Shown here: positions 4,072 to 31,063 of the stretch, in pieces
Numbering within the stretch: position 1 is the stretch's first letter
Layout of the letters: every line of letters begins with the position of its first letter
Assembly (NCBI GenBank): GCA_903894955.1
Contig: CAITSA010000020.1
Coordinates: 1 to 32,843, forward strand
Length of the DNA: 32,843 nucleotides
Direction of reading: 5' to 3'
Source of the DNA: an uncultured bacterium
GTDB taxonomy: Bacteria > Patescibacteriota > Minisyncoccia > Phycocordibacterales > UBA9973
Translations under genes and position numbers: made by a program
Notes under the pieces: generated by a model
What the model was told of the DNA's origin: nothing
Seen by the model: only the letters and a program-made list of their open reading frames with translations
The model's database searches: none

Positions 4072-4845
4072 TCATTTAAACAACTCAACGGGATTGATTT
4101 TGAACTGCAACATTTTAGCACTTTCACGACCACCATCTCCCCCCTTTCTTTGCATTCCTATTTTGCCAATTTTTAAACTACCTTCTCGCGTTATACGGAT
4201 ATCTCCAGAACCAAAAACATTCATTACATGATTTATAGATTTTAGAACCCATTTGCTTTCACCATTCAATTTTAAAACAACTAAAGTCCAATCAGCAGAA
4301 AATTCACCCCGTCCTTTTAATAAATCTGAAACAATCAAGATTTTGTTTTCTTTAACAAATTTTACAAGTTTATCTTGATCGGATTGATCCATTTCGTCTA
4401 AAAACATTCTTCTGGAATCTCTTAAGTCTTTTTTTGTTGGCTTAATTTCTCCTGTAAATAGTTTTAATATTTGTGTTATGTCTTTTGGAATATTCCAAAG
4501 CTCAACATATTTATCAATCTTTCTTTTATCTATTTGATTGAAACCTTGTGGATTACTTACAAGTTTTACTTGCAAATTCTGCACATCTTCTTGCGATTTT
4601 AGTTTTATAACAATAGTTATTCTTACTTGTATATCTGCCTTATATTGTCCCCTAACCTTTGATGCTTTTACATATTCGATATCATCAATTTTATAACTCA
4701 TTTCAGCTAACCATTCTTGGGCAATCTTATCACTTTCCCAATTATTGAAACGATCAATAACATCTTGTTCGTTACTAAATCCAGCCTTAGCGGTTTTAGA
4801 GCCAAGAGCTATCATTTCTTTTAAATTTTTCTTTTTATTTTTCAT
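4072..4845 (-). CDS. Type II restriction endonuclease, HinP1I-like (predicted GCGC)
   Basis: Recalled R.HinP1I motifs throughout: LGSKTAKxGFxNExDxxDRFxNW, IQVKLVSNxxGFNQIDK, FTGE, RRMFxxE, RGRGxFxAxWxLV, GSGDI, QRKGGDxGRExAxMLQFKIxPxELF; overlaps the methyltransferase gene. Confidence 0.88.
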   Translation of the reverse strand: MKNKKKNLKEMIALGSKTAKAGFSNEQDVIDRFNNWESDKIAQEWLAEMSYKIDDIEYVKASKVRGQYKADIQVRITIVIKLKSQEDVQNLQVKLVSNPQGFNQIDKRKIDKYVELWNIPKDITQILKLFTGEIKPTKKDLRDSRRMFLDEMDQSDQDKLVKFVKENKILIVSDLLKGRGEFSADWTLVVLKLNGESKWVLKSINHVMNVFGSGDIRITREGSLKIGKIGMQRKGGDGGRESAKMLQFKINPVELFK

Positions 4846-5833
4846 ATTTTTCTAATGTTTTAAATAATTCTCTTGCGATTGCTTCAATCGTATTCACGGT
4901 CATGGCGTTTCCCGCTTGTTTTAATAAATTTATTTCTTCTATTACTCCATCAACCTTTTTTGCCAATTTTTTAGGGAATCCTTGAAGCAACAACGATTCA
5001 TAGCCAGACAACTTTCTAAACTTACCATTTCTAACATAGAGAATACCATGTCTGCCCACTCTTAAGGTTGGCACCTTATTATCATATACTCGTAAATCAG
5101 ATTGTCTTGTATCTATAACCAGATAATCTCTCTTTAAGAATCCTTTTAGATCATATCTTCCATGATTATATGTATTCTTTAAATATCTCAAAAATGTTTC
5201 GTAAGATTCTTTCTTATCATCAAATTCAAGTTCTTTCTCATCAATTAAATAATCTTTTACGTTTGCTCTTGGTTGTTTGTCTGGGAAATGGAACTCAAAG
5301 TCATTTGGTATTAAATCCTTTCTGATTCCAATGAAGTAAACTCTTTCTCTCATTTGTGGTACTCCGTAATCAATACTGTTTAAAACTTGGTGAAATACTT
5401 TATATCCAGCTTTGTCTAGCTCTTTTAATATAACTTTTAGCGAGTTTCCATTATCATGATTTGTTAGTCCTTTCACGTTTTCCAAGATAAAATATTTAAG
5501 GTTTTTATCAAGCATTATCTTTATCAAGCCATAGATAATTTGGCCTCTTTTATCTTGCATTCCTTTCCTTTGTCCAATAACAGAAAAAGACTGACAAGGG
5601 AAACCAGCAATCATCATGTCAAAATTAGGTAATTTATCTGTATTAATATTCATCAAATCACCATAATTTGTTTCTTCTTCACCAAAAAACTTTCTATATG
5701 TTATTTCTGCTTGTCTATCTATCTCAGAAAAACCAACACAAGCCATTCCGTTGTTTTCAAGCCCAAGACGTCCTGCTCCAATGCCAGAACAGAAATCAAT
5801 AAATTTTAGGTTTTTTGTTTGTGTTTTAAGCAT
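4835..5833 (-). CDS. DNA (cytosine-5-)-methyltransferase, HhaI/HinP1I type
   Basis: FIDFCSGIGAGRLGLE (motif I), GFPCQSFS (motif IV), FILENVKGL (motif VI), QMRERVYFIG (motif VIII), QAGNAMTVN (motif X). Confidence 0.93.
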   Translation of the reverse strand: MLKTQTKNLKFIDFCSGIGAGRLGLENNGMACVGFSEIDRQAEITYRKFFGEEETNYGDLMNINTDKLPNFDMMIAGFPCQSFSVIGQRKGMQDKRGQIIYGLIKIMLDKNLKYFILENVKGLTNHDNGNSLKVILKELDKAGYKVFHQVLNSIDYGVPQMRERVYFIGIRKDLIPNDFEFHFPDKQPRANVKDYLIDEKELEFDDKKESYETFLRYLKNTYNHGRYDLKGFLKRDYLVIDTRQSDLRVYDNKVPTLRVGRHGILYVRNGKFRKLSGYESLLLQGFPKKLAKKVDGVIEEINLLKQAGNAMTVNTIEAIARELFKTLEKYEK

Positions 5834-7670: not shown

Positions 7671-10600
7671 TTATAAGATACTTTCTCTCAGAATATATCC
7701 GACAGCAGATCCCTTTCTTACTAAAAAATCTAAGATGACCAGAAGGTTTTGTTTTAAAACAAGATTTCTTTTTACTTTTTCACGGTTTTTGTAGATATAT
7801 TTTTTGGCAAGATTTTCCAGATAATAAACAGTGTTTACTTCGAGTTTTGAGGTAGGTAAATCAGGATTATTTTTTATCATATTAGACACCCAAACCATTC
7901 CGTCATCTAAGTATGGACTTCCAATGTTATTCAATAATTTTGAGATTGAATATAAAGCTGACGGGCAGTGACCAAGTTTCTCCGAGATCTCCTTAAAGAA
8001 TCTTTTGTCTTCGTCCTTAAATGTATGCCACTCAACAGCTGATTCTTTCCACGAATTTTGAGCAAATAAATAACTCCTAACTACTCTATCTATATACGAA
8101 TAACCATCTCCTTTTTCACAAACTTTAACTATTTTCTCTTTGAATAAATTCCAAACTTCCCAAAAATTTTCATATGAGTCTAAATAATCTTCAGCAGTTA
8201 TAAATTCCTTAAACAGATTAGCAACAGCTTCTGTACTATCAAATTTATCGATAAAGGATTTCAAATATTCTTTAATCTCCCCTTTTGGACAACTTAGGAT
8301 AAAATAAACCAGCTTCTCTAGGAAATGATGTCTTGTCGCATAATCAACTTTATCTTCCCTAATTTTTGATGTTAGTTTTTCAGCAAAAGCAGTAATGATT
8401 TTTTTGACGATATCTTTATGATCTTGATTTTCGGTTTTTAAAGGAATTATTTGAAATGCTGTGCTTAACACTTCTAAATCTATATTCTCTATATCTACTA
8501 AATCAGACAAAGATAGCTTATTATCCATCATTTCCTGTATCGATACTTTGTTTTCTTTTAAAAACATTTTCACAATATCATTTTCGTTTGAATCATATTT
8601 ATTTTTTTGATAGTTTTCTTGACGTATTTTCTCTCTTAAAACATCGAACTTTGGTCTCATAATCAAATAACCTGTCAACACTGATTGCATATCATCAGGA
8701 AAAGTCTTCCAGAGCCTCTGCATAGCTACTATTGAGAATGCATTAAAACTAGTACCAGCCATATCAATAGAGTGATTATTGAATAAAGAGAAGAACAAAA
8801 ATTCCTTTATTTCTTTTCTTGTTTCTGGAAGATTTTCAAGCAACACAGGGAGAACAGAAATTGCTGATTGTACATTATCGGTAACTTCATACTGGTAGTA
8901 GGGATTACGAGCTAATGAAATGACTTTCAAGACAACACCTGCGCATAGATCTTTCTCTTTTTGAGAAAGTTGATCGAAGTAATCTCTTATCATTAAAGAA
9001 CACACCTCAGTAGGTATGGAATGATTTAAAAGATAAAAACCTTCTTCCTCAGAATGTTCATATTGAAATGATTTTGGTTTTTTTGATTTTTTAAGTTTTG
9101 CAATAACCTCAGAAACTTCTTTAAGGGCAAGCTTAGGATCATCCTCGTATTGCTTATAAATTTTATACTGCTCATCATTTTTTATTTTATACACAGCCCA
9201 CATTTTTAGTGCAGTATATTTCATTGGTGCAGAGCTTTTTTCTAGTGATTTTTCACTATACTCTTTTAATTCTGGCTCAATTTCTGGATTAAATGTAATT
9301 AGAGATCCCTCCTCATTTTTTTCCGAGACAATATTCATTTTCCTTCTATCCATTCTCGCAAGATAGAGTCTCCAAGTTTTATCTCCTTCACTCTGTTTTG
9401 AGGGTTCAGGTAAATCTTTATAGTATTTATCTAAAATTACATACAGCTTTTCTTGTCTCTGCCTTGAGTCCTCTTCTGTTATTCCTTCGGTTCTAAAAAT
9501 CTGATAATTTAAAAACAGATTTTCCAGAGAATTTTTTCTATGTTTCTCATCAGAAGCATCTAGCCTTTCTTGTTCGTGAATTTGATTCTTCGCATTTGTG
9601 CCAGCACCAAATGCTCTTAGCGATAATAAGGTTGCTTTTTGTCCTACATCAAGAACTAATCTACTTGTGTCATACAAGAAAAAGCGTTTTGTTTTAAAAA
9701 GAATTTCTGCAATATTAAAGGTTTTTTCAGGGTACGCTAAAACAATACTCGTTACCACGGCTGATATGGAAGCAGACCTTGAATTTTTAAGTAAGTAAAT
9801 AAGCCAACTCTCTAGGCTCTTTGAATCCATATTTTTACCATGCTCTAAAAAGAATCGCTCTAATGCCATATGCATTGAAGCTAAAACATGAGGAGCTGCT
9901 TGATTGCCTCGGTACATACACCAAAGTCTTCCACTTAAGTACTGTTTTATGGGGTTATTCTCATCTATAAATACTTCAACCTCCTCTACCTCATATTGAG
10001 CAAACTCAGATTTAGCAAAATACTCAACTGTTTTGTTTACAAAGCTTAATATAAAATCTACAGTTTCTTGAAGCGAAGACTGTAGCAACCAGTAAATCGG
10101 GGTTTGATATGAACTAGTTGGAAATGTATCTAAGTGGTCATCTTCCATGTCAAAATGTTCTCCTATGTCAATCCCAGAGCGACCATAAAAATGATCCTCT
10201 TTCGGCGTATATGTCCAGAACAAGTCAGCTATCTTTATGACGTATTTGGGAAGAATCTTAGAAATCGGTACTCCCTCCATTTTACTTAAAATCAGTTTAG
10301 ATAAGTCATAATAAGGATCTCTATGATTTTTCCATTTATTTTTTATAATTTCTTTAAAAATCTCTTCTAGTTCGTCTTTAATTTCAGAAGAACTGTATAC
10401 AATCGTCTCTAAGAGATTTTTCTTCGTATCTTCATCAGAAAGGTACACATCTTCTTTTAAGATCCATTGATAATATTTAAGAGAAATTAAACCACAATAT
10501 TTTGTAGTTTCTCCTTCTTTAAATTTACTAGTCCAGTCATGGATTATAGAAATTACAAAATGCATACTCCTAATCCCTATTTCATCGAAGTTTTCAAAAA

Positions 10601-12479
10601 TAAATTTAATTAAACTCTCCCAGCCTTGCCCTTTGGGTTTCATTATTAAGTATTTCATTTTAAGAATACCCATACCCTTTAGACCTAATTGTCGCAAGAG
10701 AACGTCATCTGGTTCTTTACAAGCAATCCTTAATAAGAAGAAAATTCTATGTATTAAGCTTTCTTCATATTTGTAATCAATAGTGAAAGATCTTATTACT
10801 TTTGACGAAATACCCTGTGTCACTACTTTCTCAGGTATCTTTAATAATTCATTTTTTAAAAAATCAAAGAAAACATTAGAAAAATCAGAAAGTAACACCG
10901 AGACAAGCATTTCATCTTTCCAAAAAGACTGTATATCGTTACTTTGTATTGTTTGCTCGATGAAATATTTTATATCTTCATTCTCGAGAGACAGTTGCTC
11001 TGATAACCATTTTCTAAATGCTCGACGAAAAGGTAAAGAGCTGCCCAGACTCTCGAAAAATGTCTTACTATCAGTTTTTTTAGCAAATTCGGCTTCAATA
11101 ATTTTTTCTAATGCCCATTCTTCATAAATATCATGCGTAATAAAATACCCATGAGGTGATTCATAACCTAAAATTCCATCCTTTTTTAGTTCGTTCAAAA
11201 TTTCTGAGTCGCAATCCGAATTAACAAAAAACTGTCCTTCGTTTGCCCTCTGAAATGCTATTTTCAAAAAACACTGCTCTCTGGCGGGCTTCGACTTAAT
11301 AATTGTCCTATTCCACAATTTACTCTTAAAATCAATATAGTTTACTTGATCATCTGCTTTATAAAATTTCAGGTATTCACTCAAATAAAATGGGTTCCGA
11401 ATAAGATCTAACAACTTTTCATCAACGGGGAGTACAAATTTATATTTTTCAGAGAGTTCAACCAATTCTTTTGCTTCCAGTCTTTGAATATTTATATTCA
11501 AAGGTGCAATTTTGTAAATCTCAAAAAATTGATAGTTTAGATCCTCTAAATAATTATCCCTTGTTGTAAAAATAATTTTCCAATTCTCTTTAACTAAAGT
11601 AGCAAGAAACTCCTTAAAAGGATCTGTATTTTTAAGATCAAGTAATTTTTCAGCAGAATCAATCACAATAATCTTATTCCCTTCTTCCTTGTGAATATCT
11701 AAAAAATTTTGGAGCGAATATCCAGTAAAAAATTCATTTATATTCCTCAGCTCAAATTCATTTGCTTTAAATATATATACAGGTGATTTTCCTTTTATTT
11801 CTTCATAGAAATCTTTAATAAGTGCAGTCTTTCCGACACCACCCACACCACTCAATATCAATACCTGCTCTGGGCTTGTCTTTATTTTTTCCAGATCACT
11901 AGTTCTATCAATTTTAATATCCTGACCATCAAAAAAGATAGCTGTTTGTATTTCATTGAGAATATTTTCTGAATGAGACTCCTGTTGGGCTATAAGATTA
12001 AATATACCGTGATCTAGGGTAAAAAAATGTCTAGCGATTATCTCATTGTCGATAGACACAAAGGGAGATTCAAAGAAGCTTGTAGCTCTTAGTTCTAACT
12101 CAATACCAAGCTCTTTTGCTTTCGCTTCGACATCTTTCTTCCCCTGAGGTTCTTGTCCTCTAGCTTGTCCCCATTCTTGATTAGAATATAAAATTATTTT
12201 CGTGATATTTGGATAATCTTTTTTTGCTCTTTCTAGACCAGCAATAAGCTCATCTTTGTGTTTGCTGAGAGTATCATCATAAAATTTGGCTTGATGACCG
12301 ACAATGTCGTCACCAGCTTGGAGAGGATCAGTTTCTATTGCTGATTGATTCTTATAACGAGAAACTCCTTTTGTTTTATTAAATTCTTTACAAAACAATA
12401 CATAACAAAGCCACTCAAAGTTTCTTTGTGGATTCTCACTGAACTTGGCTCTAAATTTATCCCAATCAGGTTTAATCAT
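7671..12479 (-). CDS. Avs/STAND-like antiphage NTPase with putative N-terminal Mrr/PD-(D/E)xK nuclease-like domain, 1602 aa
   Basis: N-terminus FEWLCYVLFCKEF...GDDIVGHQAKFY (QxK-type nuclease motif); Walker A SGVGGVGKTAL; Walker B KIIVIDSAEKL; IIFTTRDNY; long alpha-helical C-terminal region. Confidence 0.72.
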   Translation of the reverse strand: MIKPDWDKFRAKFSENPQRNFEWLCYVLFCKEFNKTKGVSRYKNQSAIETDPLQAGDDIVGHQAKFYDDTLSKHKDELIAGLERAKKDYPNITKIILYSNQEWGQARGQEPQGKKDVEAKAKELGIELELRATSFFESPFVSIDNEIIARHFFTLDHGIFNLIAQQESHSENILNEIQTAIFFDGQDIKIDRTSDLEKIKTSPEQVLILSGVGGVGKTALIKDFYEEIKGKSPVYIFKANEFELRNINEFFTGYSLQNFLDIHKEEGNKIIVIDSAEKLLDLKNTDPFKEFLATLVKENWKIIFTTRDNYLEDLNYQFFEIYKIAPLNINIQRLEAKELVELSEKYKFVLPVDEKLLDLIRNPFYLSEYLKFYKADDQVNYIDFKSKLWNRTIIKSKPAREQCFLKIAFQRANEGQFFVNSDCDSEILNELKKDGILGYESPHGYFITHDIYEEWALEKIIEAEFAKKTDSKTFFESLGSSLPFRRAFRKWLSEQLSLENEDIKYFIEQTIQSNDIQSFWKDEMLVSVLLSDFSNVFFDFLKNELLKIPEKVVTQGISSKVIRSFTIDYKYEESLIHRIFFLLRIACKEPDDVLLRQLGLKGMGILKMKYLIMKPKGQGWESLIKFIFENFDEIGIRSMHFVISIIHDWTSKFKEGETTKYCGLISLKYYQWILKEDVYLSDEDTKKNLLETIVYSSSEIKDELEEIFKEIIKNKWKNHRDPYYDLSKLILSKMEGVPISKILPKYVIKIADLFWTYTPKEDHFYGRSGIDIGEHFDMEDDHLDTFPTSSYQTPIYWLLQSSLQETVDFILSFVNKTVEYFAKSEFAQYEVEEVEVFIDENNPIKQYLSGRLWCMYRGNQAAPHVLASMHMALERFFLEHGKNMDSKSLESWLIYLLKNSRSASISAVVTSIVLAYPEKTFNIAEILFKTKRFFLYDTSRLVLDVGQKATLLSLRAFGAGTNAKNQIHEQERLDASDEKHRKNSLENLFLNYQIFRTEGITEEDSRQRQEKLYVILDKYYKDLPEPSKQSEGDKTWRLYLARMDRRKMNIVSEKNEEGSLITFNPEIEPELKEYSEKSLEKSSAPMKYTALKMWAVYKIKNDEQYKIYKQYEDDPKLALKEVSEVIAKLKKSKKPKSFQYEHSEEEGFYLLNHSIPTEVCSLMIRDYFDQLSQKEKDLCAGVVLKVISLARNPYYQYEVTDNVQSAISVLPVLLENLPETRKEIKEFLFFSLFNNHSIDMAGTSFNAFSIVAMQRLWKTFPDDMQSVLTGYLIMRPKFDVLREKIRQENYQKNKYDSNENDIVKMFLKENKVSIQEMMDNKLSLSDLVDIENIDLEVLSTAFQIIPLKTENQDHKDIVKKIITAFAEKLTSKIREDKVDYATRHHFLEKLVYFILSCPKGEIKEYLKSFIDKFDSTEAVANLFKEFITAEDYLDSYENFWEVWNLFKEKIVKVCEKGDGYSYIDRVVRSYLFAQNSWKESAVEWHTFKDEDKRFFKEISEKLGHCPSALYSISKLLNNIGSPYLDDGMVWVSNMIKNNPDLPTSKLEVNTVYYLENLAKKYIYKNREKVKRNLVLKQNLLVILDFLVRKGSAVGYILRESIL

Positions 12480-20207: not shown

Positions 20208-22739
20208 TTAATGAATTGGCATAACACCACTAAATATGATTTGGTCACTATTCGCTGTTGTGAAAACTCCAGAAGTATTAACTATAATTATATTGTTTCC
20301 AAATGTATTTGTTTGATGGATTTTTAAAATACCAGCATTGTTCTCTCCAGAAAGATAAGCCGAATCATGAGGAACATTAAAAGGTGATGTGGCATTCAAG
20401 TATCCACCAGTCCCTTGTCCGCAAGAAGAATTTACATTCACGATTAATTGATCCTGAATACGCATATTATTGTAAGTTATTTGATAAGAACCATAGATTA
20501 GGGTCCAAGTAGCAGAACCGGCAGGAGAACCGTTACATGTAATAGCGGGCGTATATAAAAGCGTTCTTGTTGAGTAAATAGGATAGTTGAGAGTTACGGT
20601 TCCGGGTGAAGCCGCCCAATAGAAAGTAGCTGTTCCCCCAAGTGTGGCATTTGTTCTGCCTATAACTTGTACGGGGTCAGTTGATGTAGTTGAACCACCT
20701 GAAGCAAAATATGCTTCATTTGTGTTTGTCGCTGAGAAATCGGCAATCGTCAGACCGTACGGAACCCTTGCCATACCTAAATAAACAACACCAGAATGAA
20801 CCGTTAGATAAAGAAAATAATCTATATTCTGCGCAGCGAGTAATACTCCCCCGGAACCGAACCAATTCGTTCCTGCGTTTAAAGTCAATGTTAATGGAGC
20901 GGTAAGAGTATAAGGCACTCCATTAATATTTGTGTACACTGGATTGGTTGTTGAAATAGCGTTCCCATTACCCGCAAGAAGTGTAACGGTTAAGTTATTA
21001 GATGCTACGGCAGGAGATATTCTGTATCCAGTTGTAGGTTGATTTACACCAATTTGAGGATAAACATCACCGTCAGGATAATGAATTGTGCGAGTAGTCG
21101 CATGTGTTACAGCGGAAACATCATCTTGAATCTGCTTTGTTGAGTCTGTTAAGTTATATGCTCTAGGATGATCGTCAGCTTGAGATATACCAACACAAGC
21201 AGTTGGTTCACCATTAGCATCCGTACAAACAACACTTGAAGCAGCTACCGAAACCCCCTTTGCATCGGTGGAAGTCGTCCAGACAGGCCATTGATGAACT
21301 GTCGGAGTTCCTGAAGATGTGACCGTGCCAGAACCTGCATGATCATAAGCAGCCTTAACAGCCGTAGCCGAAGCCGCAGTAGTCGAAGAAGTCGTAGAAG
21401 TAGAGTCTGAGATCCCTGTTATATTAAGAGAGTCTCCCCACGCTGAACCAGTTGAAACCGCTAGACCCGCACCCGGATAAGTCATTGAGCCAGTACCACT
21501 TGAATTACAATCTATGGTATTAGTGGCAGAGTTTTTAGTGCAGTAGTTTCCATTAACCAACGTACCGGCCACTAAAGGATTTGTTAATACTGCTTGATAG
21601 TCTGTTCCAGCTGAGGCTGTACTCATTGTAGCCACTCCTCCTGAGACAGATTGCTTTAAAATTCCACTTCCTAAGGCACCAAGATTGATAGCATTGGTGG
21701 GAGCATTTGTTGTCTGATTGACCAAGTAATATCCGCTAGCATTGGCTCCTGTGCTGGAAGGATTGTCACAAGTACCATCACTTTTTAAATATCCACTGCA
21801 AGTTGTCCATAATCCGGTAATATTAGAATAAGTAGCCGGTGTAGTCCAGGCTGAACCGTTTGAGACTGCTAGACCAGAAGAAGGATAGACCATTGAACCA
21901 ACACCACTAGCACCATAAGAGAAGTTTCCTGCGCCGTCATTGGTTAATACCCCTGAACTATTAGGTAATGCGGAGATAGCATCTAGTTTAGCGCTGTATA
22001 CCTGAATATCTGTTCCGATGGATTTAGTGGAAACAACTCCATTGGTCAGAAAAGGAATTCCATTTAGAGTATTTGACCGTTGACCTGTCTTGCCACCCGT
22101 CCCAGAAAACAAAACAAGTTCACCATCTGAACTGGCGCTAGGGCCAGTGAAGTCACCGGTTGAAGAACCAGCACCAACTTCTAAAATTGACGTGCCTGTA
22201 GGCTTATAGAGTTTGCCATCAATTGAACTTTGACAGAGTTTTCCGAAAGTGAAGTATTTTGACTGATTACAGTTGGAATCAATTAAAACACCCGTGCTAC
22301 TCGAGGTACTTGATGACCCATTTGCTCCAGCTGGACCTGTAGGTCCTTGGGGACCGCGTAATTTGTTCTGAATATCAGGAAGATCAATTAATCTTTCTAA
22401 AGCAGTAAGGATAGTAGTGTCAGAAGTCCCTGTTGTCTGTGGTGTCTCCACCGTGGTAGTGGTAGAAGGAGCAGCATTAGAAATATCTATTGTCTGTGGT
22501 GTCTCCACTGTGGTATTGGTATTTAAAGAAGAAATCTTTTTCTTTAAGGCAGCAATCACTTTAGGACCAACGATACCATCAGCGGTCAATCCATTGGCTT
22601 TCTGGAAATTGATGACTGCTTGTTTGGTTAATGACCCAAAATTACCAGTGGCTATTACGCCTAGAGATGTTTGTAAACAGGTCACTTGAGTACCTTTGGA
22701 ACCTAGTTTTAGGGTAGGGGTAATGGAGCAATCAGCCAA
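20208..22739 (-). CDS. Large secreted protein: PG_binding_1-like domain, collagen-like GPQGPTGPAG, fibre-like repeats; true start probably upstream at about 22881/22885 with SSR-controlled frame
   Basis: LKLGSKGTQVTCLQTSLGVIATGNFGSLTKQAVINFQKANGLTADGIVGPKVIAAL; GPQGPTGPAGANG; upstream in-frame codons encode KFLRLSKVFTLFLFVFLFTNGALA signal peptide. Confidence 0.8.
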   Translation of the reverse strand: MADCSITPTLKLGSKGTQVTCLQTSLGVIATGNFGSLTKQAVINFQKANGLTADGIVGPKVIAALKKKISSLNTNTTVETPQTIDISNAAPSTTTTVETPQTTGTSDTTILTALERLIDLPDIQNKLRGPQGPTGPAGANGSSSTSSSTGVLIDSNCNQSKYFTFGKLCQSSIDGKLYKPTGTSILEVGAGSSTGDFTGPSASSDGELVLFSGTGGKTGQRSNTLNGIPFLTNGVVSTKSIGTDIQVYSAKLDAISALPNSSGVLTNDGAGNFSYGASGVGSMVYPSSGLAVSNGSAWTTPATYSNITGLWTTCSGYLKSDGTCDNPSSTGANASGYYLVNQTTNAPTNAINLGALGSGILKQSVSGGVATMSTASAGTDYQAVLTNPLVAGTLVNGNYCTKNSATNTIDCNSSGTGSMTYPGAGLAVSTGSAWGDSLNITGISDSTSTTSSTTAASATAVKAAYDHAGSGTVTSSGTPTVHQWPVWTTSTDAKGVSVAASSVVCTDANGEPTACVGISQADDHPRAYNLTDSTKQIQDDVSAVTHATTRTIHYPDGDVYPQIGVNQPTTGYRISPAVASNNLTVTLLAGNGNAISTTNPVYTNINGVPYTLTAPLTLTLNAGTNWFGSGGVLLAAQNIDYFLYLTVHSGVVYLGMARVPYGLTIADFSATNTNEAYFASGGSTTSTDPVQVIGRTNATLGGTATFYWAASPGTVTLNYPIYSTRTLLYTPAITCNGSPAGSATWTLIYGSYQITYNNMRIQDQLIVNVNSSCGQGTGGYLNATSPFNVPHDSAYLSGENNAGILKIHQTNTFGNNIIIVNTSGVFTTANSDQIIFSGVMPIH

Positions 22740-28955: not shown

Positions 28956-29417
28956 TTATCTAATAATATTTTTAAGCAAATGATTTTTATAAATTTTTTC
29001 TTTATATGGTTTTAAACGTATGATTTTTACTAAAATACCCTTATTTTTCAAGTCTCTTTTCAGTTCTGATACATAAGTTTTTTGATCATAACCAAGAGCA
29101 ATAATGTCTGGTTTTTCTTTTAAAATATGAGGCAAATATTTAATTTTTCCTCCTAAAACTACCTTGTTTATAAATTTATTTTGTTTGACTAAATTAAATC
29201 TTTCTTTTTCAGAAAATGTTGACTTTTTTCCTTTAATTTTAATTATGTTTTTATCTCTAGCAATTGAAGCAATCACAAATGAATTCTTGGAAAGTTCTTT
29301 TGCCTGTTTAAAAAAATTAATATGCCCAGGATGCAATCCATCGAAAACTCCGAAAACCATTATATTTACCCGCCTTTCTAGAGTTATTTTTTTTGTATCC
29401 ACATCTTTCTTTGACAT
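28956..29417 (-). CDS. Cytidylyltransferase-like nucleotidyltransferase
   Basis: IMVFGVFDGLHPGHINFFKQAKEL (HxGH motif); DIIALGYDQKTY; start at 29417 preferred. Confidence 0.82.
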   Translation of the reverse strand: MSKKDVDTKKITLERRVNIMVFGVFDGLHPGHINFFKQAKELSKNSFVIASIARDKNIIKIKGKKSTFSEKERFNLVKQNKFINKVVLGGKIKYLPHILKEKPDIIALGYDQKTYVSELKRDLKNKGILVKIIRLKPYKEKIYKNHLLKNIIR

Positions 29418-29464
29418 AATATGAAGTAAGTATATACTAAGAGAGTTCATTTGAAAATTAAAAG

Positions 29465-29600
29465 AATTGATTGGGGAAACTGGTTAGATTCCAGTACAGT
29501 GCCGCTACGGTAAGTCCTTCCGACTTAAGTCGAAGGAACAAGTCCGAATACCAATCATTTTATTAGTAGTCCCGAGCAGGATTTATAAGAACCAGTGTCT
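29465..29600 (+). promoter_or_regulatory. Cobalamin riboswitch-like element
   Basis: TGATTGGGGAAACTGGTTAGATTCCAGTACAGTGCCGCTACGGTAAGTCC...CAAGTCCGAATACCAATCA: matches B12-box style core (GGGAA..GGT..TCC, GCCGC.ACGG, AAGTCCGAA.ACC); TGATTGG/CCAATCA closing stem. Confidence 0.82.
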
Positions 29601-29609
29601 TATTTGTCG

Positions 29610-29633
29610 ACTCCTCTCGGTAGGAGTTTTTTT
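29610..29633 (+). terminator. Intrinsic terminator in riboswitch expression platform
   Basis: ACTCCT-CTCGGT-AGGAGT followed by TTTTTTT, upstream of the 29650 start. Confidence 0.78.
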
Positions 29634-29649
29634 ATTTTTAATTTAAACC

Positions 29650-30444
29650 ATGAAAAAAATTTCACTAAGTTTCTTGATTGTCTCAACATTACTAACGGGA
29701 GGAAGTAAGTTTGCCCTAGCTGATGGAGCAAATGTGAATTTAACTGTGAAAAATAACGGAGATATTGTTTATTCTGGTACCATACCACTGTCATCAACGC
29801 CAAGCGAGGACAATGTGCTCTTTGCAATAAAACAAGCTGATACCTTAAGTTCAGATTTTGATATTTCTAATATTGTTCATTACAGTTTTGGTGATTATTT
29901 AAAATGCATTACGATTTCCAAAACAACTGAACTTTGTGATAATTGGCTATATAAAGTTAACGGGGATAGCCCTATGATGGGTATGGACTCATACCCTTTA
30001 TCAGGAAAAGAAAATATTGTCTTGTATTTTGGAGATGAAAACAAAGCACCAAATCCAGAACCAGAAAATCCACCAAGTGGCGGTAGTAGTGGGGGCAGTG
30101 GATATTCGATTTCAAATACTATTATTCCCACCACTTTACTTGTTTCTCCTATCCCCACTTCTTCTTCAGATATAAATCCTGAAGAAAAACCCCTCGGGTA
30201 TAGCCCCATCGGCAGGAACCTCACAGGCGATACTACTGACAAGTCAAAAACTATTTTATTTACAAACCCTAAAAAACAACCTAAAAAAATAAGCAAAATT
30301 ACCCTCGGGCATAGCCCTATGGGTGAGCCAAACCAAAATACTGCAACAATTACAAATCCTGTTCCTCCTATCCCGGTACAAACTGAAAATCCAAAAAATA
30401 CTTGGTGGGGAAGATTTTGGGATAAAATATTTAGTATTTTTTAA
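29650..30444 (+). CDS. Secreted DUF4430-like (transcobalamin C-terminal-like) domain protein with Pro/Ser/Gly linker
   Basis: Signal peptide MKKISLSFLIVSTLLTGGSKFALA; CDNWLYKVNGDSPMMGMDSYPLSGKENIVLYFGDE resembles WxYxVNG...YxLxxGDxI..Y motif. Confidence 0.72.
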   Translation: MKKISLSFLIVSTLLTGGSKFALADGANVNLTVKNNGDIVYSGTIPLSSTPSEDNVLFAIKQADTLSSDFDISNIVHYSFGDYLKCITISKTTELCDNWLYKVNGDSPMMGMDSYPLSGKENIVLYFGDENKAPNPEPENPPSGGSSGGSGYSISNTIIPTTLLVSPIPTSSSDINPEEKPLGYSPIGRNLTGDTTDKSKTILFTNPKKQPKKISKITLGHSPMGEPNQNTATITNPVPPIPVQTENPKNTWWGRFWDKIFSIF

Positions 30445-31063
30445 ACTCTACAATTTTTCCTGCTTTTATTTCTATCCTATCTGCTTTTCGAAGTTTCTTA
30501 ATAAAAGACTTCGGCACAATATCGTAATGTTTTATTTTATCTAATTTTTTATCTATAAACCAAAGATCTTTTTGCGATATAGCCCAATTCTCGTCTGCCG
30601 ATGAGGCAGATTTTTTCAAAGTATTTAAATTAAGAAGTGCCGAATACTGCCTTAAGGTTTTTTCTCCATTATTTAAAAAATATTCATGAAAATAAGACAT
30701 AGCAAGCTCACGAATATTTTTATAAATAGGCTCACGGTAGCGTAAAACCGCATGATTAGTTTTAGATAAAGCACCCCAATATTTCCCTATTTTAAAAGGG
30801 ACAACAATATGGTCAAAATCCTCTTTGGTAGCCTTTAAATGCATTAAATATGGAGTAAATCCTTGTAGGGATAACAGATAAGCTCCAAGAAGCGCCCCTT
30901 CAAAACAATGTGCCCTTCGTGTTCTCAGGGTTAAAATCGGAGATTTTAAACTTTCCCCTTTTTCCTCAAAATTAAACTTTAAACTATTCAAAAAATCCTG
31001 CACCTTGGCGGGTGTATTTAATTTCTTCATCAGAGCCAGTTCTTTTTTTGTAAACCCTAACAT
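30431..31063 (-). CDS. Conserved hypothetical, possible transglutaminase-like fold
   Basis: RRAHCFEGALLGAYLLSLQGFTPYLMHLKA..DFDHIVVPFKIGKYWGALSKTNHAVLRYREP pattern with Cys/His spacing. Confidence 0.6.
   Translation of the reverse strand: MLGFTKKELALMKKLNTPAKVQDFLNSLKFNFEEKGESLKSPILTLRTRRAHCFEGALLGAYLLSLQGFTPYLMHLKATKEDFDHIVVPFKIGKYWGALSKTNHAVLRYREPIYKNIRELAMSYFHEYFLNNGEKTLRQYSALLNLNTLKKSASSADENWAISQKDLWFIDKKLDKIKHYDIVPKSFIKKLRKADRIEIKAGKIVEFKKY

Follow-up and report, generated by a model that had tools for sequence, protein, structure and literature searches.

Within the 32,843-nucleotide window, the whole stretch of DNA analysed here, a gene on the forward strand (29650-30444) encodes a 264-residue secreted protein with a DUF4430 domain. 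It is preceded by a match to the Rfam Cobalamin family RF00174 (29425-29573, forward strand), which scores 39.5 bits in cmscan relative to a gathering threshold of 31.5 (E = 8.5e-7 for the whole window). This is the sole RF00174 match in the window's own genome, an assembly of 627 kb in 31 contigs that is 76.6% complete. The significant match bears out an initial annotation, made from the letters alone, that had proposed a cobalamin riboswitch upstream of the DUF4430 gene. The pair is flanked by a divergent cytidylyltransferase-like gene (28956-29417, reverse strand; PF01467, E = 2.5e-13) and a convergent transglutaminase/vasohibin-like gene (30431-31063, reverse strand), both conserved in synteny and lying outside the B12 unit. 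The product of the convergent gene has a weak vasohibin/transglutaminase-like match, and its orthologue in L082 scores above the PF14822 cut-off. Most loci in the genus occupy one of two sites: one lies between the divergent cytidylyltransferase and the convergent transglutaminase-like gene, which is the window's arrangement; the other comes straight after a pair of genes for a ribonucleotide reductase (RNR) and an adenosyltransferase. The annotated CPR (Patescibacteria) host is upheld; named relatives are mostly Candidatus Nomurabacteria.

A sigma-70-type promoter, TTGACA-16-TATACT (29411-29438, forward strand), agrees with the consensus at 11 of 12 positions. Its position is kept in most relatives, about 60-63 nt before L5, and its -35 box shares bases with what is probably the start codon of the divergent gene. 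Because the 5' part of the RF00174 match (29425-29438) overlaps this promoter, the leader transcript would probably start near 29445 and the functional aptamer is predicted to be a compact core at about 29460-29565. The core itself (29468-29557, forward strand), whose core columns are invariant in 16 sequences, is closed by P3 (TGATTGG 29468-29474 with CCAATCA 29551-29557). It holds the P4 strands (29479-29483/29491-29495), a T-loop-like L4 (TTAGATT, 29484-29490), L5 (TGCCG, 29500-29504), the P6 arm and J6/3 (AGTCCGAATACC).

The P3-P6 core is conserved with compensatory base changes, and 95.7% of the cells are paired across P3, P4 and the terminator in 16 genus sequences. Both-sided changes affect three of seven pairs in P3, two of five in P4 and three of five in the terminator stem. 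They number 8 compared with 4.3 in shuffles, and none of 500 shuffles gave a higher score; the result is supportive rather than proof, the shuffle preserving column make-up and not relatedness. Sliding the pairing partners abolishes the signal. The fold of the whole leader is only mildly above shuffles in stability (z = -1.6). A chance match, or a degenerate riboswitch without ligand response, would fit the modest Rfam score and the way in which the model's 5' part is forced onto the promoter. We judge this extremely improbable: the core, its compensatory changes, the kissing loop, the antiterminator and the terminator are conserved in dozens of relatives, and the riboswitch precedes DUF4430 genes throughout the genus. 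Taken together, these comparisons indicate that the riboswitch at 29425-29573 is real.

In cobalamin aptamers, L5 docks with L13 of the hairpin P13 (PMC10653944; PMC10907184). P13 of the window is the hairpin TCC-CGAGCA-GGA (29570-29581, forward strand), which is invariant in the 16 genus sequences. From sequence evidence only, its loop L13 (CGAGCA, 29573-29578) is the kissing partner of L5: the predicted TGCCG:CG(A)GCA pairing comprises five base pairs with A29575 bulged and is likewise invariant in the 16 sequences. Across the class, where the search required CGAG or CGCG in L13, the loop CGAGC[A/T] is kept while the P13 stem varies (TCC/GGA, CCCT/AGGG, TTTCTT/AAGAAA, CTTC/GAAG). At the S-component loci, L5 TGTCGCG (pairing part TCGCG) accompanies L13 CGCG, a matched alternative pairing. 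An earlier search that did not require P13 to fold recovered the 10-mer CCCGAGCAGG downstream of nearly all genus aptamers. Both L13 and J6/3 presumably resemble their counterparts in env8HyCbl, a likeness that we treat only as a lead.

The initial annotation had assigned the kissing loop to the hairpin ATAAGA-ACCAGTG-TCTTAT, with ACTGGT in the core as its partner. We reject this ACCAGT:ACTGGT pairing. The hairpin is real, but ACTGG at 29479-29483 is the 5' strand of P4, and the loop is not conserved, reading TTCAATG in the closest relative, L162, whereas P4 is unchanged there. The hairpin (29585-29603) is instead a spacer that caps the antiterminator.

This predicted antiterminator (29572-29620, forward strand) pairs CCGAG[C]AGGA (29572-29581) with TCCTCTCGG (29612-29620) in a duplex of -13.4 kcal/mol and is contained in the minimum-free-energy fold of the leader. 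The leader also contains the intrinsic terminator that had been annotated, GACTCCT-CTCGGT-AGGAGTT plus a T-run (29609-29633, forward strand, with the hairpin extending to 29628; one found where 0.3 were expected). Averaged over all loci with a terminator, the antiterminator pairing reaches -10.1 as opposed to -5.4 (sd 0.3) with shuffled arms; a few loci mis-called by the terminator finder (for example L006, L017, L021 and L027) were kept, which weakens rather than inflates this test. When arms were exchanged among 17 loci, most of them more distant, the value was -7.1, compared with a true value of -9.2 (p = 1.5e-4).

The same P13, antiterminator and terminator logic has been proven by mutation for metE of P. 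megaterium, where corrinoid turns expression off (PMC10653944). For the window we infer both that the RNA binds its ligand and that corrinoid acts in this sense. At low corrinoid, the terminator's 5' arm would be taken up in pairing with the 3' half of P13, and the gene would be expressed. With corrinoid in the P3-P6 aptamer, L5 would kiss L13 and hold P13 closed, the terminator would form and the gene would be off. The element shares the P3-P6 core, the T-loop L4 and the L5-L13 kissing loop with cobalamin riboswitches (RF00174/RF01482 clan; P. megaterium metE, PMC10653944), and, specifically with the metE-type switch (PMC10653944), a P13 whose 3' half doubles as antiterminator and a terminator acting as an OFF switch. 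It is unlike known cobalamin riboswitches in being compact, with little or no P1/P2, in its Patescibacteria host and in its place before DUF4430 genes. The bulged A in L13 departs from metE-type switches; a bulge has been reported in L13 of env8HyCbl (PMC10653944).

The protein encoded downstream begins with a signal peptide read directly from the sequence (codons 1-24, MKKISLSFLIVSTLLTGGSKFALA, followed by DG), continues with the DUF4430 domain (codons 25-135) and a Pro-rich tail, and ends in a conserved aromatic C-terminus (NTWWGRFWDKIFSIF). PF14478 (DUF4430) matches it with 23.7 bits, 0.1 bit under the gathering threshold of 23.8 (E = 6.5e-5), and the same protein scored 26.2 bits in the genome search. 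In the domain (29722-30066, forward strand), which has a C...C(D)xWxY pattern, two cysteines, one tryptophan and one tyrosine are invariant in the alignment. A structure model of residues 25-139 built from 38 relatives (pLDDT 89.9, pTM 0.82) predicts the fold of the transcobalamin beta domain. Among PDB entries the model comes closest to haptocorrin (4KKI, E = 4e-5), intrinsic factor (2PMV) and the human transcobalamin beta domain in isolation (5NO0), with TM-scores of 0.69 to 4KKI by query length and 0.69 to 5NO0 by target length. Of the 19 top fold matches, 17 belong to vitamin B12 carriers and the remaining two to chains of 3U7Z, a 'putative metal binding protein' of Ruminococcus gnavus. 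Sequence identity to the transcobalamin-type carriers is only 15-20%, and a sequence-profile search against solved structures returned no transcobalamin, the link being visible by fold only. The annotated secretion and DUF4430-like domain are upheld by the signal peptide and the near-threshold Pfam match, and the proposed kinship with the C-terminal domain of transcobalamin and intrinsic factor is confirmed independently by the predicted fold. Transcobalamins carry DUF4430 at their C-terminus (PMC4350170).

The window protein does not follow the transcobalamin plan of an alpha/alpha barrel and a beta domain in one protein, the barrel being absent from its 264 residues. In transcobalamins the barrel is the other half of the B12-binding site. 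We found no squalene-cyclase-like barrel in the window's own genome at 76.6% completeness, and a second, barrel-supplying protein could be missing from this assembly. In the genus, the riboswitch is usually followed by two genes, the first encoding a small membrane-anchored DUF4430 protein and the second a larger multidomain protein with DUF4430, a beta-sandwich and an alpha/alpha barrel. The barrel is present in most relatives, which pair it with DUF4430 as transcobalamin does; DUF4430 precedes the barrel in this genus, whereas it follows the barrel in other families. We do not claim transcobalamin membership for the relatives' barrel, as the top whole-protein matches of a two-domain orthologue are complement and squalene-cyclase folds. 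Of these two genes, the larger is the one to which the window gene is orthologous; the window gene lacks the middle, and its N-terminal domain and C-terminal tail both match. This barrel-less form occurs in the window's species and in one close relative (L162), whose protein is 41% identical to that of the window over its full length and 64% in the domain. Misassembly is an unlikely cause of the missing barrel, since the same form and the same synteny are found in the independent assembly of L162.

Loss of the barrel could mean that the window gene is a decaying remnant, with a working riboswitch, a lost small DUF4430 gene and a product that binds corrinoid poorly or only with a partner. Most syntenic relatives have two genes, one of them with the barrel, where the window retains the DUF4430 domain and C-terminal tail only, and the missing squalene-cyclase-like barrel in its genome points the same way. 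We nevertheless find decay rather unlikely. L162, another species, keeps the barrel-less form with an intact frame, signal peptide and C-terminal motif, and a second barrel-less form, membrane-anchored, is found in L183 and L186 beside an RNR and a CobA-like adenosyltransferase. Because frames stay open at the divergence between the window and L162, selection on the barrel-less form is suggested. Two copies of CTCGGGYATAGCCCYATSGG (0 expected by chance) are present in the tail of the window gene, at 30193-30212 and 30304-30323, where they encode LGYSPIG and LGHSPMG; they may be what remains of a small repeat inserted close to where the barrel is missing.

The same genome encodes a candidate consumer of B12. 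On contig C28, genes for an S-component-like protein, a 764-residue RNR and a PduO-type adenosyltransferase stand in a row. The best match of the RNR is the adenosylcobalamin RNR 1L1L (E = 3.4e-41), which we take to be that of L. leichmannii. With PF21995 (the B12-RNR insertion domain) and PF17975 above their cut-offs and TIGR02505 below its own, the RNR is assigned by sequence to class II (adenosylcobalamin-type). The adjacent cob(I)alamin adenosyltransferase matches PF01923 with 153 bits. By its family match, the S-component-like protein resembles ECF S components (PF07155) and solitary S components such as BtuM; at four other loci, a gene of this kind comes immediately after a cobalamin riboswitch. 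Unlike ECF S components, the copy in the window's genome scores below the Pfam cut-off (24.6 bits against 26.7; the orthologues in L014 and L173 reach 30.0 and 28.4), and no CbiQ-type ECF energising (T) component was found in the 31 genus genomes. The four loci (L007, L014, L018 and L026) have a riboswitch with L5 TCGCG and a solitary S-component-like gene, whose product is likely a B12 carrier of Patescibacteria. In L002 and L021, cobalamin riboswitches lie beside genes resembling those for lower-ligand salvage (CobT/CobU-like, judged by eye). The earlier remark that no synthesis or BtuB genes are nearby is accurate for the locus but incomplete for the genome, with the RNR, adenosyltransferase and S-component-like genes on another contig.

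We then compared the distribution of these genes. RF00174 is found in 21 of the 31 genus genomes, or 23 counting two weaker RF01482 matches. All 21 also have DUF4430; two genomes have DUF4430 without RF00174 and eight have neither (p = 5.7e-6). In the two exceptions the weaker RF01482 matches (E = 7.5e-5 and 1.3e-4) lie at the same place, so that a riboswitch match is present at the locus in 23 of 23 DUF4430-carrying genomes. The RNR and DUF4430 occur together in 21 genus genomes, each without the other in two, and neither in six (p = 9e-4). In five relatives (L173, L181, L188, L191 and L200), the S-component, RNR, PduO, riboswitch and DUF4430 form one contiguous block. Among 384 genomes of the class, 26 have both RF00174 and DUF4430, eight only the riboswitch, 34 only DUF4430 and 316 neither (p = 3.6e-17, a value inflated by shared ancestry); 24 of the 34 class riboswitches lie within 3.5 kb of DUF4430. 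Because 34 class genomes have DUF4430 without a detected riboswitch, DUF4430 proteins need not all bind corrinoids. The arrangement, initially thought unusual, is on this genomic evidence a recurrent Patescibacteria system and not a lone oddity.

From fold and linkage, corrinoid capture is very probably the function of the controlled protein, and the cobalamin-capture role first suggested for it is the best reading of the B12-carrier fold and the B12-use genes. It could otherwise be a cell-surface protein for adhesion or host contact, its expression merely tuned by B12. Its Pro-rich low-complexity tail and aromatic C-terminus do resemble a surface display module, and Pfam gives DUF4430 no function. 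Such a role is quite improbable given that B12 carriers make up nearly all of the closest solved folds and that the gene is linked to B12-use genes, in contiguous blocks in several species.

We consider it likely that the DUF4430 protein is a secreted corrinoid binder at the cell surface that supplies the RNR with B12, and that its gene is under the control of a transcription-terminating riboswitch repressed by cobalamin. The prediction builds on the riboswitch, kissing loop, antiterminator, terminator, secretion signal, fold and co-occurrence, each drawn from sequence or comparison; we infer corrinoid binding by the DUF4430 protein and its hand-over to a carrier. The DUF4430 product would be exported via signal peptidase and stay outside the membrane, where its transcobalamin-beta-like domain would bind corrinoid and hand it on to a carrier in the membrane. 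The S-component-like protein, whose gene lies elsewhere in the genome, is the probable carrier. Within the cell, the adenosyltransferase would make adenosylcobalamin for the class II RNR. A broader proposition, which we find plausible but hesitate to favour, is that transcobalamin-like surface proteins, produced only under B12 shortage, allow Patescibacteria to scavenge corrinoids for an adenosylcobalamin-dependent RNR, and that in some species the carrier has been reduced to the beta domain alone as a minimal external B12 binder.

In Lactobacillales, a DUF4430 protein adjoins rtpR (L. rhamnosus LGG_02295), and an 'additional lipoprotein component of putative cobalamin ECF transporter' is also listed (PMC9963975). 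The Patescibacteria system shares with it (PMC9963975) the DUF4430 gene beside an adenosylcobalamin-type RNR gene and the cobalamin-ECF annotation; unlike the Lactobacillales protein, that of the window lacks a lipobox cysteine and carries a site for signal peptidase I, and no CbiQ was found. Our analysis extends this pattern to Patescibacteria and goes beyond the published annotation (PMC9963975) with the riboswitch, the two-domain plan of the barrel-bearing relatives and the barrel-less variant of the window's species. In the open-access literature (subscription journals lie outside it), we found no paper on a cobalamin riboswitch with DUF4430, or on riboswitch, cobalamin and Patescibacteria together. 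For these ultra-small, biosynthesis-poor bacteria, the proposed capture-and-use chain of sensor, surface binder, carrier, adenosyltransferase and consumer offers a concrete route for B12. It would link DNA precursor synthesis in these Patescibacteria to corrinoid from neighbours, assign a likely function to a bacterial DUF4430 family and provide the vertebrate B12 carrier fold with a counterpart in bacteria.

Elsewhere in the window, a LOOT RNA (RF03000) match at positions 1-113 scores 64.3 bits (gathering threshold 46.4), its 5' end cut by the window start. A 1602-residue STAND NTPase (7671-12479, reverse strand) matches the anti-phage defence protein Avs4 from end to end with 2216.7 bits, a striking gene for so small a genome; near it lie a type II restriction enzyme (4072-4845) and a cytosine methyltransferase (4835-5833). 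An 843-residue protein (20208-22739, reverse strand) combines a peptidoglycan-binding domain with a phage tail-fibre repeat.
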